33,634 nucleotides of DNA, from assembly GCA_012514635.1 (NCBI GenBank), contig JAAYZX010000032.1, positions 1 through 33,634 of the forward strand. Reading direction: 5' to 3'. This DNA is from Actinomycetota bacterium. Lineage in GTDB: Bacteria; Actinomycetota; Thermoleophilia; RBG-16-64-13. The position numbers were made by a program, and so were the translations under genes. The first letter of the stretch is position 1, and each line of letters starts with the position of its first letter. Below are positions 6,380-17,583 of this stretch, in pieces. The notes under the pieces are model-generated. The model worked only from the letters and a program-made list of their open reading frames with translations. It was not told where the DNA came from and did not search any database.

Positions 6380-6798
6380 CACACAGTCACATCGCGTTTT
6401 CCCGATCAATCACCGTACAGCCTGACACATCGCAGCTCTATGAAGTTCGCCGTTTTGTCGAGTCGGTAGCTGCAGATGCCACCCTCGATTCAGAGCGCAC
6501 CTTCGATCTTATGGTGGCCGTGTCGGAGGCGTGTGCCAACGCTGTAGAGCACTCGGGATCGCCGGGCCTGCCCGTGAAGGTGAAGGCCGCCTGTCGCGGA
6601 GGGCGCCTGGTCATCCAGATCTGCGATTACGGCGGGTTCCGTCTTCCCAGTACGGCGAACGGCTTCCAGCGGGATCATCGCGGGTTGGGCCTACCGCTGA
6701 TGGTGGCCCTTATGGACGAGGTGCGCATCGCTAAGTTGTCGGGAGGGGGTACCAAGGTAACCCTCAGTGTTAAGCTTCCCGCTCCTGCGCTCTGCTGA
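6376..6798 (+). CDS. Anti-sigma factor serine kinase (RsbW/SpoIIAB type HATPase)
   Basis: The 140-residue product is a GHKL ATPase of the anti-sigma kinase type. The N box is SEACANAVEHSG (Glu and Asn for Mg-ATP), the G1 box is ICDYGGF, and the G2 box is GLGLPLMVALMDEV. GGGTKVTLSVKL forms the last strand. Such proteins phosphorylate their STAS antagonist and sequester a sigma factor. The ATG overlaps the STAS stop codon (ATGA), so translation is coupled. Its 3' end overlaps the convergent selD gene by 29 bp. Confidence 0.88.
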   Translation: MTHSHIAFSRSITVQPDTSQLYEVRRFVESVAADATLDSERTFDLMVAVSEACANAVEHSGSPGLPVKVKAACRGGRLVIQICDYGGFRLPSTANGFQRDHRGLGLPLMVALMDEVRIAKLSGGGTKVTLSVKLPAPALC

Positions 6799-7861
6799 CT
6801 TCCTCTCCGACCGACCGCAGAATCACCAGCCGTCTGTCGGTCGCAGTGAGCATGCGTCCCACAACCGCGGCCGCGAGTACACCTCCGCGCTCCAACTCGC
6901 TCACGAGAACCCGTGCCCGATCCGGCGGAAGAGAGACCAGCAATCCTCCCGACGTCTGCGGATCCGCGCACATGAGGCGTTGCCACTCCTCCACTCCCGT
7001 CCCCCACTCCGTATCGGCAGCAATATATTCGAGATTCCTGTACGTGCCACCGGGGACAATCCCGCTGCGGGCCAACTCATCCGCCCCACTCAGCAACGGA
7101 AGCGCGTCACACCAGATCTCGGCCGTGGTATCACTCGCCTGACACATTTCCAGGAGGTGCCCGGTCAGCCCAAACCCAGTGACGTCGGTAAGACCGTTGG
7201 GGCGTTGGGCGACGGCGATCCGCGAGGCATCATGATTGAGCGTGGCCATGCAGTGAGTGGCTTCGGCGATGATCTCCTGTGCGGCGACATCCCCTTTTAT
7301 GGCCGTCGCCACGATGCCCGTACCCAGGGGCTTGGTCAGCACCAGCACATCACCCGGCAGCGCTCCGGCGTTGGTCAGATACTCACCCGGGCGCACCAAT
7401 CCCGTGACCGCCATGCCGTACTTGGGCTCCGGGTCATCAATGGTATGACCGCCCACGATGGTGACTCCCGCCTGGAGCGCCGCATCTGCGCCCCCACGTA
7501 GGATATCGGCCAACATATCCAGAGGGAGTTGTTGTGCCGGGAAGGCCACTATGTTGAGCGCGATCCTGGGTGATGCACCCATAGCATAAATGTCGGACAG
7601 CGAATTGGCGGCGGCGATTCGTCCAAAATCGTAGGGGTCGTCAACCACAGGAGTGAAGAAGTCTACGGTCTGCACCAAGGCGAGATCGTCAGATATTCGG
7701 TAGACGGCTGCATCGTCGGCAGTGTTGGTCCCCACCAGTAGATCCGGGTCCGACACAACCGGCAACTTGGCAATAACGTGACCCAAGTCCCCTGGGCCGA
7801 TCTTGCATGCTCAGCCGGACCCATGCGACAGAGTGGTGAGACGAGGAAGCTCCTCTGCCAT
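6770..7861 (-). CDS. selD: Selenide, water dikinase, itself a selenoprotein (TGA = Sec at codon 17)
   Basis: SelD makes selenophosphate, the selenium donor for Sec-tRNA synthesis. The frame from ATG 7861 (GAGGAG 5 nt upstream) reads 16 codons, an in-frame TGA at 7813-7811, then runs open to 6770, giving 363 residues. The start region reads LTTLSHGSG-U-ACKIGPGDL, the known SelD active-site loop in which position 17 is Cys or Sec and Lys20 follows. Later blocks include GTNTADDAAVY, QTVDFFTPVVDDPYDFGRIAAANSLSD, GGHTIDDPEPKYG and DVTGFGLTGH. A hairpin at 7798-7780 puts a GGGAC loop 19 nt after TGA, fitting a bacterial SECIS. A start at TTG 7786 would delete the catalytic loop. Without Sec decoding the product would be a 16-residue peptide. 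It may share a transcript with the zinc-ribbon and PspC genes upstream. Confidence 0.93.
7780..7798 (-). promoter_or_regulatory. Candidate bacterial SECIS hairpin of selD
   Basis: On the minus strand GGCCCAG, loop GGGAC, TTGGGTC forms a 7-bp stem (two G-U pairs). The loop begins 19 nt after the TGA at 7813-7811 and starts with G, as bacterial SECIS models require. Confidence 0.55.
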
Positions 7862-10363: not shown

Positions 10364-11719
10364 TTACTCAACCATCTGAACGCCGAATCCCTGCGCATCC
10401 TCCACCAACTCGAAATCCACCCCGCAGATGGGACAGGTAACTCGATCGCCGACTTGGGCATCCGGCTCCAGCTGAATCTCATGGCGACACACGGGACACT
10501 GCACGCCAATGAAGCGCGGCCGGTAGGTTGGCTCAAAGAGCTGTTTCATTAGAGCAGGATCGAGATCGCTTCTGCTGGAACCGATACCGACCGCCTCCTC
10601 CAGTTCTCCCGCCTCGGCCACGTTACCCACCAAAATAGCGCCAATTAGGCGATCATCCGGGGCAAACACCAGTTTCTTATAGAATTCCCCGATCACTTCC
10701 GTCCTGACTTCGCTCGGGCCCGAGCGATACGGTACAACCGTCTGTCCGATCGCCACCACGCTCAATCCCATGAGCTGACAATTGAGCACATGCACGCTGC
10801 TGCGGCCGGAACGAACAGAATCTTGTGCCCCGCAGGCCGCCAGCCCTACGCTTTCACCCTGCCGCCAAGCACGCAGCCAATTGAAAGGGGGCTCGTCACC
10901 AACGACATCGCCCGCGACCCACACGTGCGGCCAGGGAGTAGACAGGTCTTCCGCCACCCGAAGGCCACCCTCCGCAACCGGCAACGCAGCCGTCACGGGC
11001 CGGTAGGCAGCGCACGCTCCTACCAGATCTGCCGGATACACCTGTCCGCTACTTAGCTTCACAGCCGCCGCCCGGCCGGCCTTTTTCTCGATAGAGCGCA
11101 CGTCGGCGCCCTTCACCACCTTCACACCTGCCGCATGCAGACGCCCGTCCAAGATCTGCGACGCGTCTTCGTCCAGCACACCGGGCAGAATTCTTTCTCC
11201 CGCAACTAGATAAGTGATGTCCAATCCGGACGTGGCGGCTGCTTGAACCATCTGCAGAGCCGGTAGGGAGTCTCCATACACCACCACCCGGCCGTCGCCC
11301 CCCTGCAACACACGCAGCTGAGCCGCCTCCTGAAGAGTCTGGAAAGAAATCACCCCGGGCAGGTCGGAACCGTCAACTCCTTCACAGTTGGGCTCCCGTC
11401 CCGTAGCAACGATCAGGTGATCGTACTCCAGAGTGGAGCCATCGAGCATACGCACCATGGATGCAGAAGGCTCCACAGCCACGACCTCCGTGTTGAGTCG
11501 GAGATCAATCCTCTTTTCCTCCCAGAACGAAGGATTACGAGCCATTAGGGCCGCCTCCGCCAGTCGTCCAGCGGCATACTCGCCCAGCTGAGGCCTACGA
11601 TAGAAGGGATGATCCTCGCGGCTCACCATGATGATCTCGGCTGCCGGCACGTTGGCACGGATGGTTTGGGCCGCCCGCGTTCCCGCTACTCCGCCTCCAA
11701 TAATCAGATAGCGGCTCAC
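10364..11719 (-). CDS. FAD-dependent pyridine-nucleotide oxidoreductase with C-terminal LysW-like zinc ribbon
   Basis: The 451-residue product has an FAD-binding N terminus (YLIIGGGVAGTRAAQTI), the ATGREP block and the second FAD motif HVWVAGDVVG, as in NADH:rubredoxin or nitrite reductase-type flavoproteins. The central nucleotide-binding fold reads VVVYGDSLPALQ where GxGxxG is normal, so NAD(P)H use is uncertain. The last 45 residues form an added zinc ribbon, CPVC-x17-CPICG followed by VDFELVED, resembling the lysine-biosynthesis carrier LysW more than rubredoxin. GTG 11719 is chosen as start (AAGGAGG 4 nt upstream); an extension to 11890 would run into the upstream gene. Sitting just behind a flavodiiron protein gene, it is a plausible electron donor to that enzyme, by inference. 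Confidence 0.85.
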   Translation of the reverse strand: MSRYLIIGGGVAGTRAAQTIRANVPAAEIIMVSREDHPFYRRPQLGEYAAGRLAEAALMARNPSFWEEKRIDLRLNTEVVAVEPSASMVRMLDGSTLEYDHLIVATGREPNCEGVDGSDLPGVISFQTLQEAAQLRVLQGGDGRVVVYGDSLPALQMVQAAATSGLDITYLVAGERILPGVLDEDASQILDGRLHAAGVKVVKGADVRSIEKKAGRAAAVKLSSGQVYPADLVGACAAYRPVTAALPVAEGGLRVAEDLSTPWPHVWVAGDVVGDEPPFNWLRAWRQGESVGLAACGAQDSVRSGRSSVHVLNCQLMGLSVVAIGQTVVPYRSGPSEVRTEVIGEFYKKLVFAPDDRLIGAILVGNVAEAGELEEAVGIGSSRSDLDPALMKQLFEPTYRPRFIGVQCPVCRHEIQLEPDAQVGDRVTCPICGVDFELVEDAQGFGVQMVE

Positions 11720-11837
11720 CTGGCCTCCTTCTCTGCGCGACGGCTCCGCCGCCGCGCGCTTACTTCCCGCTCCATAGGACACTTCTTCTCGACCGGACCC
11801 AATTGCCGCCGAGCGCCGCCTACGGAAGCAAGTATCT

Positions 11838-13046
11838 TTAACGAACCCATTCTTTAACCCGCCTTGCCACTTGGCGACCGTATTCCTCACAGGCTATGAG
11901 TTCCTCTTCGTTGGGTACGTAACGAACCTCAAGAGGCTCCAACACATCCAGGCTCATGGAGCGCAATGTGGCATCGATCTCTTTGACGGCACCGCCCCCC
12001 CAACCAAAGGATCCAAATGCCCCCGTCAGACGCGACTTCGGCCTCAATCCCTTGATGTACGTCAGGAACCTGCCCACATTAGGCAACATACCGTTGTTCA
12101 GTACAGGCGATCCCACCAGAAACGCCCTCGATTCTTGGACGTACCGTGCAACTCGCGCCAACGGCGTGCCACTCAATGGCAGTATCGTGACCTCTACATC
12201 CTCCTGCGCCACCCCATCCGCCACGGCATATGCCATCTTCTCGGTGGAATGCCACATGGTGTCGTAGACAAGACAGACCCGGGGCTTCGCTTCAAAACGC
12301 GCCCAGGCCGCATATGCCTCAATAATGGCATCGACATGTTCACGTAGCCGCCAGATGGCTCCGTGACTTGGGGCAATTGTGTCGATTTCCAGTCCCATCT
12401 CGATCAACTTTTCAATTGTCTTGGTGACCTGGCCGGCGAACGGCATGAGAATATTGGCGAAGTAGGTGACGGCTTCTTCCATTACCACGTTCATATCCAA
12501 TTCGTCGGCAAACCGGCGGCTGCTCGCCAGATGCTGGCCGAAAGCGTCGTTCGGCAGCAAGATATGCGGCTCCTTGACGTAGGTGAACATGCTGTCCGGC
12601 CAATGCAGCATGGGCGCCTCAATGAAGGACAGCGTGTACGAGCCCAGATTGATCTCGTCGCCGGTGCCCACCGCCATGACGTCCCAGCCTTCGCACTCCT
12701 CACGGGTGAAGTGTAACGCCAATGCCTCCTGCCCCCTCTTGGAGGTCAAGATCTTGCGGGGACGCAGTTGTTCAATCAGCCAAGGCAGGCACCCCGAATG
12801 GTCCATCTCCACGTGATTGACCACCAGGTAGTCCACCGTTTGTTCTTGACAACATCCACGCACACGCCGCAACATCTCCGGCCCCAAACCTGCGCGCACT
12901 CCGTCCACCACGCAGACCTTCTCATCTACGATCAGGTACGAGTTGTAACTGCTGCCATGAGGGGTGTCATACCCGTGAAACTCACGTACACCCCAATCGA
13001 CGGCACCCACCCAGTAAATACCGTCCGCCAAAGGGACACGCTGCAT
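11838..13046 (-). CDS. Flavodiiron protein (A-type, FprA-like O2/NO reductase)
   Basis: Flavodiiron proteins reduce O2 to water or NO to N2O in the cytoplasm of anaerobes. The 402-residue product has the beta-lactamase-like diiron domain followed by a flavodoxin domain from about 255. Diiron ligands are present: HVEMDH (His78, Glu80, Asp82, His83), His148 in MLHWPDS, Asp167 in NDAFGQH and His228 in SHGAIWR. The FMN loop is YDTMWHSTEK (261-270), with SFGWGGGAVKEI later. There is no rubredoxin extension, so an external donor is needed. The ATG at 13046 has GAGGAGG upstream. It lies 47 bp after the methyltransferase and 118 bp before the FAD oxidoreductase, on the same strand. Confidence 0.95.
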   Translation of the reverse strand: MQRVPLADGIYWVGAVDWGVREFHGYDTPHGSSYNSYLIVDEKVCVVDGVRAGLGPEMLRRVRGCCQEQTVDYLVVNHVEMDHSGCLPWLIEQLRPRKILTSKRGQEALALHFTREECEGWDVMAVGTGDEINLGSYTLSFIEAPMLHWPDSMFTYVKEPHILLPNDAFGQHLASSRRFADELDMNVVMEEAVTYFANILMPFAGQVTKTIEKLIEMGLEIDTIAPSHGAIWRLREHVDAIIEAYAAWARFEAKPRVCLVYDTMWHSTEKMAYAVADGVAQEDVEVTILPLSGTPLARVARYVQESRAFLVGSPVLNNGMLPNVGRFLTYIKGLRPKSRLTGAFGSFGWGGGAVKEIDATLRSMSLDVLEPLEVRYVPNEEELIACEEYGRQVARRVKEWVR

Positions 13047-13093: not shown

Positions 13094-14062
13094 TCAACGC
13101 ATGCGTCTACCGAGGATCAATTGGTTGGTTCCCAGAGTAAGATCGACAATCTCCACATCTTCAAAACCCGCTTCCTGCAACCAAGTTCGATACTCCTCCT
13201 CCAACCACACTCCACCCTCATCGGTAGCTTGAAGCATATCCACGGCGAACATCCGCGCCCGCGGGCTACGATCCCACACCAGGTCCACGGCGGCCAAGAC
13301 CCCACCCGGAGCGAGCGTGCGGTACACGCGATCGGCAAGCCTACGATTCTTAGCAGGGCCGTAAATGTGGAAGACATTTCCCAGATATGCCACATCGAAC
13401 GGCCCGCTGGGAAGAGCCACGTTGAAGTCACCCTCTACGAGTCGTACGCCCGAGCCCACTGCGTCTCGCTGCCGCCGCGCCAGCCGAATAATACTGGGCG
13501 TATCGACCACTGTGGCCTGCAGTCCACGATCCGCAAAACGTAATGCCACGTGACCGAGACCGCCACCCACATCGATCATACTGCGAGGATGCACAGGTCG
13601 CGCATAAGACAGTATGGCGTCCACCGATTCGTCGATCTTAGCCGAACTCCCCTCTGCCATGGTATGAGCAAAGGCGTGAAGGTTCCGACGCCGTCGCGAC
13701 GCAGGGGGACGTTTCCCGTGAGCGATGATATAGGGAAGCTCCATCCAACCACGAGCCTTGCCCGCTTGGTGAACCAACCGCGCCCGCTCCAAGTCTGGTC
13801 CCGGTTCCACCAGATGGCGTCGCCCACGCTCGGTCAACCTATAAAGCGAAGGATCCGACGACCTCACCACCTCCACCACTCCGATTTCCGCCAGCGCCTC
13901 CAACACCAGTCGACATACACGGGGATCGGCGGAGGCGGAGGCGGCCACGGCTGAAGCCGTGGCCGCCTCCGCCTCCGCCAACGCGTCGATCACACCCGAT
14001 TCCAACGCCGCCGCCAGAAGCAGCAAACGCTCGATTTGTGAACGGTCAACCAGTGGGACCAT
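13094..14062 (-). CDS. SAM-dependent O-methyltransferase-like protein
   Basis: The 322-residue product has an N-terminal winged-helix dimerisation region (about 1-90) and a class I SAM-methyltransferase domain whose motif I reads MIDVGGGLGHVALRFADRG, with the acidic VVDTPSI after it. The LGNVFHIYGPAKNRRLADRVY and LAPGGVLAAVDLV blocks fit the O-methyltransferase family 2 (PF00891) group. The substrate is unknown. ATG 14062 is chosen because GGGAGG precedes it and the family usually begins near here; the frame stays open to 14146, but those codons overlap the upstream gene's tail. A perfect 24-bp palindrome lies in codons 28-45. It sits 47 bp after the stop of the Sec-rhodanese gene and 47 bp before the flavodiiron gene. 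Confidence 0.85.
   Translation of the reverse strand: MVPLVDRSQIERLLLLAAALESGVIDALAEAEAATASAVAASASADPRVCRLVLEALAEIGVVEVVRSSDPSLYRLTERGRRHLVEPGPDLERARLVHQAGKARGWMELPYIIAHGKRPPASRRRRNLHAFAHTMAEGSSAKIDESVDAILSYARPVHPRSMIDVGGGLGHVALRFADRGLQATVVDTPSIIRLARRQRDAVGSGVRLVEGDFNVALPSGPFDVAYLGNVFHIYGPAKNRRLADRVYRTLAPGGVLAAVDLVWDRSPRARMFAVDMLQATDEGGVWLEEEYRTWLQEAGFEDVEIVDLTLGTNQLILGRRMR
13928..13979. repeat. Perfect 24-bp inverted repeat inside the methyltransferase gene
   Basis: Arms at 13928-13951 and 13956-13979 are exact complements around a TGAA loop. The arms are GC-rich with a GGCGGA tandem triplet-like pattern ending in GGCCACGGC. It codes an Ala/Glu/Ser-rich helix and adds no obvious length compared with the family. 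Confidence 0.95.
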
Positions 14063-14109
14063 CGCCCTCCCAGCCCGGCGAAACCACAACACGCCCTTAG
14101 GACTGTCTT

Positions 14110-15252
14110 TTACGCAGTTTCCAGCGGCAATCCGGCGCCCTGCCATTCCGCCACACCACCGGCGTAATCCCGCACATTAGTGAAACCGAGCTGTCGCAGC
14201 TTATCAGCCGCGATAGAGCTGGCTTCTCAGCCGAAGTCGTTGCAGTAGACAACGATGGGTTCATCTTTAGCGAACCGCTTCCTCGCCTCGCGGGTCAACG
14301 ATCGAAAGTCCAGCCACTCGGCTCCGGGCAGATGCCCTTTCTTCCAGTGCTCTTCGCCTACAACGTCCACGAGTTGCATATGCTCGCCGCGCTGCAGTGC
14401 CGCCCACAGCTCCTCACGAGTGATCACGCCCACGCTCGGCCTTCCGGCCAACGGATCGTAAAACACGAGGTATGCGGCGGCCGTGAAGTAGTCGGCGCGC
14501 CTGAACAGCTCCACCTTGGCGTGATCAGCCATATCGACTAAGGCGCTCGGCACCAGACCGGACTGTTCCAATCTCTTGCCTGCCGTCAACACGGCCCAAA
14601 GCTGCTCCTCAGGTATCCGGTACGGCGCCAGGACATCGATAACTCCGTAGATACCCCCGGCGGCGACTTCATGCGCCACCACTCCCACCACTTCCCCGGC
14701 CAGAACAAGTACCCACCACTCATCATTTGGTACGGTCTTCTCCAGCTCTTCCAGCGAAGGAGCGCCGGCCTCGCCCCTGGCGTGTAGAAAAACAGCATGC
14801 ACCGCCTTGAGGTGCGGATAGTCGAGGGGATCGAGAGAAAGGCCCGGCATATCCTCGGGTGGATGGGCGGCCCGTGCCACCATGAGCGCCCTACTCATCT
14901 CCAGCTGCATCCCCCGCGCCAGAAGAGCGGTGACAAGCAGACATTCGTCACTACGAACCAGGTACGCACGCGGAGCTATCTCTTCTTTGATCAGATCAAA
15001 AAGATCCTCGTAGCGATCCGTGTAGACGGGATCCAAGTATGTCTCCAGCAGAGTGTGGTGCACGTGGTCACCGTGGTGATCTTCCAGTACCAATGCATAG
15101 CCCACGTTGGCCGCCCCATCCAACACCCTGTACACCTGAGCATGCTCCGCCAAGTGTGCATGGAAACCGGCCAGCAGCGGCACCCGATACGATTCCGTTT
15201 TGACGGCACGCATCTGCGCAATCTCATGATGTGCTGAACGTACAAGCTTCAT
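14110..15252 (-). CDS. GNAT-like protein fused to a selenocysteine rhodanese domain (TGA = Sec at codon 342)
   Basis: From ATG 15252 (GAGGAG 6 nt upstream) the frame runs 341 codons to a TGA at 14229-14227, then 38 more codons to a TAA at 14110. Residues 1 to about 270 look like one or two GNAT acetyltransferase-type folds (weak similarity by eye, e.g. DEWWVLVLAGEVVGVVAHE). Residues about 278-380 are a rhodanese domain: DVVGEEHWKKGHLPGAEWLDF, then IVVYCNDFG-U-EASSIAADKL, then GFTNVRDYAGGVAEWQGAGLP, which is complete only if TGA is read through. Sec342 lies five residues after Cys337, replacing the second Cys of CxxxxC-type rhodanese loops. A hairpin puts its loop 20 nt after the TGA. It heads the operon with a methyltransferase, flavodiiron protein and FAD oxidoreductase. 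A pseudogene is the alternative. Confidence 0.88.
14194..14213 (-). promoter_or_regulatory. Candidate bacterial SECIS hairpin of the rhodanese gene
   Basis: On the minus strand TCGCGGC, loop TGATAA, GCTGCGA forms a 7-bp stem with one G-U pair. The loop starts 20 nt after the TGA at 14229-14227 and has G as its second base. Confidence 0.6.
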
Positions 15253-16869: not shown

Positions 16870-17583
16870 CTATTCGAACGCGTTCTCTACTTTCCATTCC
16901 TTCCAGACCTTTCCGGCCAGGTCCGGTCCAGGGGTCAGAGTGGGTTTTCCGGGCTGCCACCCGGACGGCGTCACCTCGCCGGTTGCGACCACATGCTGGA
17001 AGGCCTTCAGCTGACGGATCATCTCCGTAACATTCCGGCCCACCTCAGGTGTCAGCACTTCCATCGCCCGAATGACCCCCTCGGGATCAATAATGAAGCG
17101 GCCCCGGATATCCACCCCAGCAGCCTCTTCGTAGACTCCGTACACAGTCCCCACGCGACCGCCCTGATCACTCAGCAGAGGAAACGGCACGCCACCGGGC
17201 ACCATCTTCGTCAGTTCTTCCTCCTGCCAGATCTTGTGGCTGAAACGACTGTCTGTGCTCATGGCCAACACTTCTGCGCCCAGAGCCTTGATTTCAGGAT
17301 ACTTGACGGCAACTGCCGCCAGTTCCGTCGGTCAAACGAATGTGAAGTCTCCCGGATAAAAGCAGAGAACCACCCACTTGCCCTTATGGTCCGACAGCTT
17401 GACATTCTGGAAACCGCCGTCTACGAACGCGCTTACTTCGAAGTCCGGCGCCGGATACCCTACCCGTGCCATCACTTTGGACACCACCTCCTCTGTTGTT
17501 CCGGCGGATTCTGCCGCCTCCACACCCGGGGCACCAATAGGACCCTGGGCAGGCTTCACGCAACCGTCTTTTGCCGCAGGCAT
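16870..17583 (-). CDS. Selenocysteine-containing peroxiredoxin (TGA = Sec at codon 84)
   Basis: The frame from ATG 17583 (AAGGAG upstream) reads 83 codons, a TGA at 17334-17332, then 153 codons to 16870; total 237 residues. The TGA sits exactly at the peroxidatic Cys of the AhpC/Prx1 motif: [15 protein letters not shown]. After it come [34 protein letters not shown] and [10 protein letters not shown], all typical. The resolving Cys expected in GEVCPxxW is Thr205 here ([10 protein letters not shown]), so the usual 2-Cys cycle is not possible; Cys8 and Cys74 are the only Cys left. It should reduce hydroperoxides in the cytoplasm with thiol or thioredoxin partners. A hairpin loop starts 17 nt after the TGA. 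Simple gene calling would split it in two. Confidence 0.93.
17305..17320 (-). promoter_or_regulatory. Candidate bacterial SECIS hairpin of the peroxiredoxin gene
   Basis: On the minus strand GGCGGC, loop AGTT, GCCGTC forms a 6-bp stem with one G-U pair. The loop begins 17 nt after the TGA at 17334-17332 and has G as its second base. A competing longer stem (GACGGAACTG with CAGTTGCCGTC, one bulge) would place the loop only 12 nt away. Confidence 0.5.

Follow-up and report, generated by a model that had tools for sequence, protein, structure and literature searches.

The minus-strand gene at positions 14110-15252 of the stretch analysed here (the window, 33,634 nt of contig JAAYZX010000032.1 from a thermoleophilian member of the Actinomycetota) almost certainly encodes a selenoprotein, 380 residues long, in which a tandem GNAT-like part is followed by a rhodanese domain and a UGA at codon 342 is read as selenocysteine (Sec). 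The frame opens with ATG at 15252, closes with TAA at 14112-14110 and has a single in-frame TGA, at 14229-14227, which stands at the same codon in orthologues. The 38 codons 3′ of it specify a complete C-terminal half of the rhodanese domain, and the contention of the initial annotation, that the TGA lies inside an otherwise intact domain, is borne out by a Pfam match running across it (PF00581, residues 278-372, 62.3 bits versus a cut-off of 22.2). Sec342 is the sixth and the catalytic Cys337 (TGC, 14242-14244) the first residue of the rhodanese loop C-N-D-F-G-U, and the pairing of the two in one loop that had been proposed is evident in the frame as C-x4-U spacing. With standard annotation the gene stops at codon 341 and half of the active site is lost. 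Elsewhere in the window TGA is an ordinary stop rather than a reassigned sense codon, since it terminates 11 of the 23 genes, and genome-wide reassignment was thereby ruled out.

Orthologues were sought in 61 genomes, the source and 60 relatives, and 12 of the 18 from the same family possess the rhodanese-GNAT protein, approximately 46-56% identical where near full length. Codon 342 is TGA in eleven of these, including the source, and TGT (Cys) in the twelfth (genome G001, loci L027/L069; 41-44% identical, with the methyltransferase neighbor described below retained), with no further residue type being found. Cys337, and either Sec or Cys at 342, are invariant in the orthologue alignment (A1). 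Unrelated residues at 342 in relatives lacking the hairpin had been named at the outset as what would speak against Sec; the eleven other members instead have ten Sec and one Cys, and the TGA genes retain the hairpin that the Cys gene has lost. tRNA-Sec was detected in eight of the eleven TGA genomes, the other three being 64-93% complete drafts without a match. Six of the 18 family genomes do not have the gene and five of the six do have tRNA-Sec, so the rhodanese gene is not needed for Sec synthesis. In a class-wide sample of 299 genomes, the N-terminal part is essentially confined to the family of the source. Named genomes yielded nothing when scanned with the single protein, and ten metagenome-assembled genomes (MAGs) from Thermoleophilia and other Actinomycetota when scanned with the orthologue alignment; the named members of the orthologue group are MAGs without exception. 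One copy, that of G007 (L026), is peculiar: its frame shifts near residue 90-105, and where the other copies conserve Trp303 it has a second TGA, so that it may be decayed or misassembled.

Shortly 3′ of the TGA is a candidate SECIS element, a 20 nt hairpin at 14194-14213 on the minus strand (from 14213 to 14194, UCGCGGCU-GAUA-AGCUGCGA), in which 8 bp close a 4-nt loop starting with G (GAUA, 14205-14202) that is 21 nt after the TGA; its energy is -12.6 kcal/mol. The 7 bp and 20 nt given for it in the initial annotation describe the same hairpin counted with a 6-nt loop, and the count is otherwise 8 bp and 21 nt. All of these values lie within a model of bacterial SECIS elements that specifies a loop of 3-9 nt whose first or second nucleotide is G, a spacing of 16-37 nt, 4-16 bp and -7.5 kcal/mol or lower (PMC13188914). 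The 50 nt from the TGA onwards fold at -26.5 kcal/mol (z = -5.0). However, for 8585 codon positions in genes of the window the chance rate of passing the SECIS filter is approximately 6%, with 0.9% reaching the observed energy, and for this reason the hairpin alone is weak evidence. More pertinent is that, for nine TGA orthologues, synonymous-codon identity along the gene peaks in the 16-codon windows at, just before and just after the TGA (0.76, compared to 0.53 before and 0.54 after them). Across eleven sequences the stem is 95.5% paired versus 27-53% for slid versions, and the codon for Arg353 is CGA in all eleven, with CGA accounting for approximately 12% of Arg codons in the other genes of the window. 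The Cys orthologue encodes an identical peptide, IAADKLRQLG, with other codons and has no hairpin. A covariation test of the stem yielded zero compensatory double changes among orthologues, and support for the hairpin consequently derives not from covariation but from the conserved synonymous sites and from its disappearance in the Cys gene. As judged from the aligned sequences, conservation of the hairpin among TGA genes is not weak evidence. An Rfam search of the window at gathering thresholds gave no matches.

The source genome (2.34 Mb, 98% complete) has the set SelA, SelB, SelD and tRNA-Sec, the last with anticodon UCA (TCA in the DNA; 80.4 bits) and adjoined by SelB and SelA on contig 56. 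The selD gene, whose product supplies selenophosphate for Sec, is within the window (6770-7861, minus strand; TIGR00476, 399 bits) and has its own Sec17 (GSG-U-ACK); an ordinary ORF list places its start late, at TTG 7786. The gene for a Sec peroxiredoxin, PrxU, is also there (16870-17583, minus strand; Sec84 in TFV-U-PTE; NF040737, 378.6 bits with a cut-off of 270), and under the standard code it is split in two. As SelD and PrxU share the window with the Sec rhodanese, there are three selenoprotein genes in 33 kb. With this machinery, SelB would bind the hairpin (14213-14194) and deliver Sec-tRNA to UGA 342, and translation would run on to the TAA at 14110; readthrough to that point, though predicted, is strongly supported by the sequence. 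That the TGA is instead a real stop, in a truncated or decaying gene or through sequencing error, gains some color from the broken appearance of the G007 copy, but it is barely tenable given the identical TGA in eleven genomes with Cys in the twelfth, purifying conservation beyond the TGA, the SECIS-like hairpin and the full Sec machinery. Interpretation as a pseudogene was discarded, with the G007 copy perhaps an exception.

The C-terminal part (residues 275-378; 14119-14430, minus strand) is, by its Pfam match, fold and loop Cys, a rhodanese domain, for which sulfurtransferase activity is predicted. An AlphaFold2 model built on the orthologue alignment (mean pLDDT 86) superimposes at its C-terminus on the rhodanese domain of 3tp9 in Foldseek comparison (rmsd 1.6 A, 106 columns). 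The initial annotation's GNAT-like N-terminal region was correct though understated, since AlphaFold2 and Foldseek reveal a tandem GNAT comprising residues 1-126 (14875-15252, minus strand; pLDDT 86) and 138-265 (14458-14841, minus strand). Residues 1-265 match the tandem GNAT 3iwg, of Colwellia psychrerythraea, with E 1.1e-16 and a TM-score, by target, of 0.80-0.82. Nevertheless, identity to 3iwg is 15-16%, it has no rhodanese, and the CoA motif is missing from the window protein: the acetyl-CoA motif [QR]xxGx[GA] is absent from the GNAT part in nine of ten members and from both repeats here, the sole match (QEAGHG, residue 195, L021) not being conserved. The Pfam GNAT model PF18015 scores 19.3 bits, under its cut-off of 23.8. 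Because of the missing motif and the sub-cut-off Pfam score, acetyl transfer is doubtful, and the tandem GNAT probably serves in binding or docking. H60-x2-H63-x-H65, D102 and C104 in its first repeat are invariant among orthologues; the H-x2-H-x-H of residues 60-65 (15058-15075, minus strand) may be a metal site, the GNAT part around it having no CoA motif.

Next downstream of the rhodanese gene is that for an O-methyltransferase-like protein (13094-14077, minus strand; PF00891, 54.4 bits; start unsure, perhaps ATG 14062), and a methyltransferase is adjacent in 11 of 11 related loci examined. It is followed by genes for a flavodiiron protein with ODP and flavodoxin parts (11838-13046, minus strand; PF19583, PF00258), kept in L063-L068 and L026, and for an NAD(P)H:FAD reductase (10364-11890, minus strand, with the true start downstream of 11890; PF07992, PF21344) retained at L063, L064, L065, L067 and L068. 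Both of the latter genes are retained in most related loci that are long enough to show them, and this gene order suggests that the conserved cluster may be a redox unit. The reductase, beside the flavodiiron protein, has a LysW-like zinc ribbon (PF21344) at its C-terminus. The window also has a gene for an LppM-domain protein (PF21946; 17764-18636, minus strand), which is near the rhodanese gene in several relatives (L062, L063, L064 and L067).

The catalytic Cys of rhodaneses forms a persulfide. In related Actinomycetota families the loop positions equivalent to 337 and 342 are C-x4-C or C-x4-U, in keeping with a redox pair. Cys337 would take up sulfane sulfur as a persulfide that Sec342 would then attack, with sulfide being freed or sulfur passed on, and a Cys337-S-Se-Sec342 selenenylsulfide being left for a thiol or flavin partner to re-reduce. 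On this view the gene product would reduce persulfide or polysulfide, or else relay sulfur under redox gating, alongside the flavodiiron protein and FAD reductase of the cluster; this chemistry is put forward tentatively, as having nearly an even chance of being correct. The combination of Sec readthrough, Cys-Sec sulfur chemistry and a GNAT docking module is, on balance, probably the best explanation as a whole. The Cys-Sec pair directly predicts that an S-Se bond forms within the rhodanese during its reaction; this is testable on one protein, for which the natural Cys orthologue is a ready control.

Other chemistries merit consideration. Sec342 could reduce peroxide or other oxidants, in the manner of a peroxidase or thiol-oxidoreductase, in place of sulfur transfer: a C-x4-C/U pair has the anatomy of a dithiol switch, and the company of the flavodiiron protein, the FAD reductase and, 1.6 kb away, the Sec peroxiredoxin is in keeping with such a role. 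Nevertheless, the rhodanese fold is intact, as is the loop that holds the catalytic Cys, and none of the related loci compared has a PrxU match, making the proposal unlikely. Selenium itself might be the cargo, with the Cys-Sec loop binding selenide or perselenide and handing it to the SelD encoded in the window. Rhodanese-type enzymes can handle selenium, the tRNA 2-selenouridine synthase MnmH being a rhodanese, and selD is 6.3 kb away and also in the vicinity at L069 and L070. It is, however, outside the syntenic stretch of L063, L064, L065, L067 and L068, and the occurrence of tRNA-Sec in five of the six family genomes without the gene speaks against a carrier; this role is decidedly improbable. 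Gene order and genome distribution thus weaken both of these alternatives.

The constancy of the methyltransferase, the most constant neighbor, raises another prospect, that of a cluster for methylation or detoxification of chalcogens or arsenic in which the adjacent enzyme would methylate S, Se or As species that the Sec rhodanese had activated or set free. The methyltransferase has weak similarity to ArsM arsenite methyltransferases, some of which are themselves selenoproteins, but these matches are far below cut-off and its best match is to an O-methyltransferase domain; involvement in such a pathway is accordingly rated improbable.

In a 2026 review five rhodanese selenoprotein forms are distinguished, with motifs UxxS, UxxG, CxU, UxxG and UxxxxU, and none of the five is a C-x4-U rhodanese or is described as having a GNAT or CBS partner (PMC13188914). 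The UxxS and UxxG forms share the rhodanese fold and Sec with the window protein, but do not have the Cys-Sec pair. Of the curated NCBIfam models none reached its cut-off, with only sub-cut-off matches, including those to NF041203 and TsoB, and assignment to either was dropped. NF041203 (rhodanese_LYCAU; 38.5 bits with a cut-off of 115) also pairs Cys with a nearby Sec in a single rhodanese domain, but its motif is CxU, not C-x4-U, and it is without a GNAT domain. TsoB (NF045694, rhodanese/DsbD-fusion-like; 34.4 bits over the rhodanese part with a cut-off of 805) is also a rhodanese selenoprotein and its UxxxxU has the same five-residue spacing (PMC13188914). It differs in that it is about 570 aa long and carries a DsbD-like part and two Sec, whereas the window protein has Cys first and the tandem GNAT, and neither Pfam scan nor fold disclosed a DsbD-like domain in it. 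Among proteins without Sec, BH2092 (PDB 3nhv/3o3w) has Cys at both loop positions (C-x4-C, YCWGPAC), but no GNAT fusion. As its motif and partner are unlisted and the NCBIfam scores are below cut-off, the window protein is a new Cys-Sec rhodanese selenoprotein with spacing akin to that of TsoB, a genuine new variant absent from the published selenoprotein lists examined, and the initial annotation's suggestion of a new selenoprotein architecture has fared well. Nothing relevant was found in the literature on C-x4-C rhodaneses, rhodanese-CBS selenoproteins, Thermoleophilia selenoproteins or the gene cluster, in which subscription journals were thinly covered, and an earlier report is possible.

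The C-x4-U loop extends well beyond the family of the source. Searches of class and phylum samples with the rhodanese part alone revealed many more TGA-bearing genes, 42 of 61 among the matches listed for the phylum sample at E <= 1e-13. At every TGA locus read, in seven genomes and a further 23 loci, the TGA falls on loop residue six, with Cys as residue one; a hairpin conforming to the SECIS model follows it in the 23 loci and a stable stem of like sequence in the seven genomes. Most of the loci read encode rhodanese-CBS proteins (PF00571), whose hairpin is nearly fixed (CGRGCCGCGUGGCGGCUCG), and they apparently constitute an unlisted selenoprotein family larger than that of the window protein. 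Standard annotation would inflict an equal loss on C-x4-U rhodaneses in dozens of genomes in a sample of one phylum. Both the rhodanese-CBS and stand-alone C-x4-U proteins (L083-L124) resemble the window protein in TGA loop position and SECIS-like hairpin, but differ in having a CBS partner or none, and the window's group is on a separate branch. The C-x4-C Cys forms are single-domain relatives. A tree built on 87 columns sets the window's group (support 99) apart from the CBS and Cys groups, a topology compatible with one or several origins of Sec. It is conceivable, though somewhat less than an even bet, that all belong to a widespread unlisted class of Actinomycetota proteins in which a Cys-Sec rhodanese loop, joined to varied modules (tandem GNAT, CBS or none), relays or reduces sulfane sulfur via a selenenylsulfide.

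The near-invariant hairpin CGRGCCGCGTGGCGGCTCG of the C-x4-U rhodanese-CBS genes was seen in L083, L085, L086, L088, L089, L091, L096 and L098-L124, from many Actinomycetota families. The stand-alone C-x4-U rhodaneses of L121 and L123, of approximately 95 aa and with the loop YCSNFN-U-HSS, are from single-contig genomes that are 100% complete.
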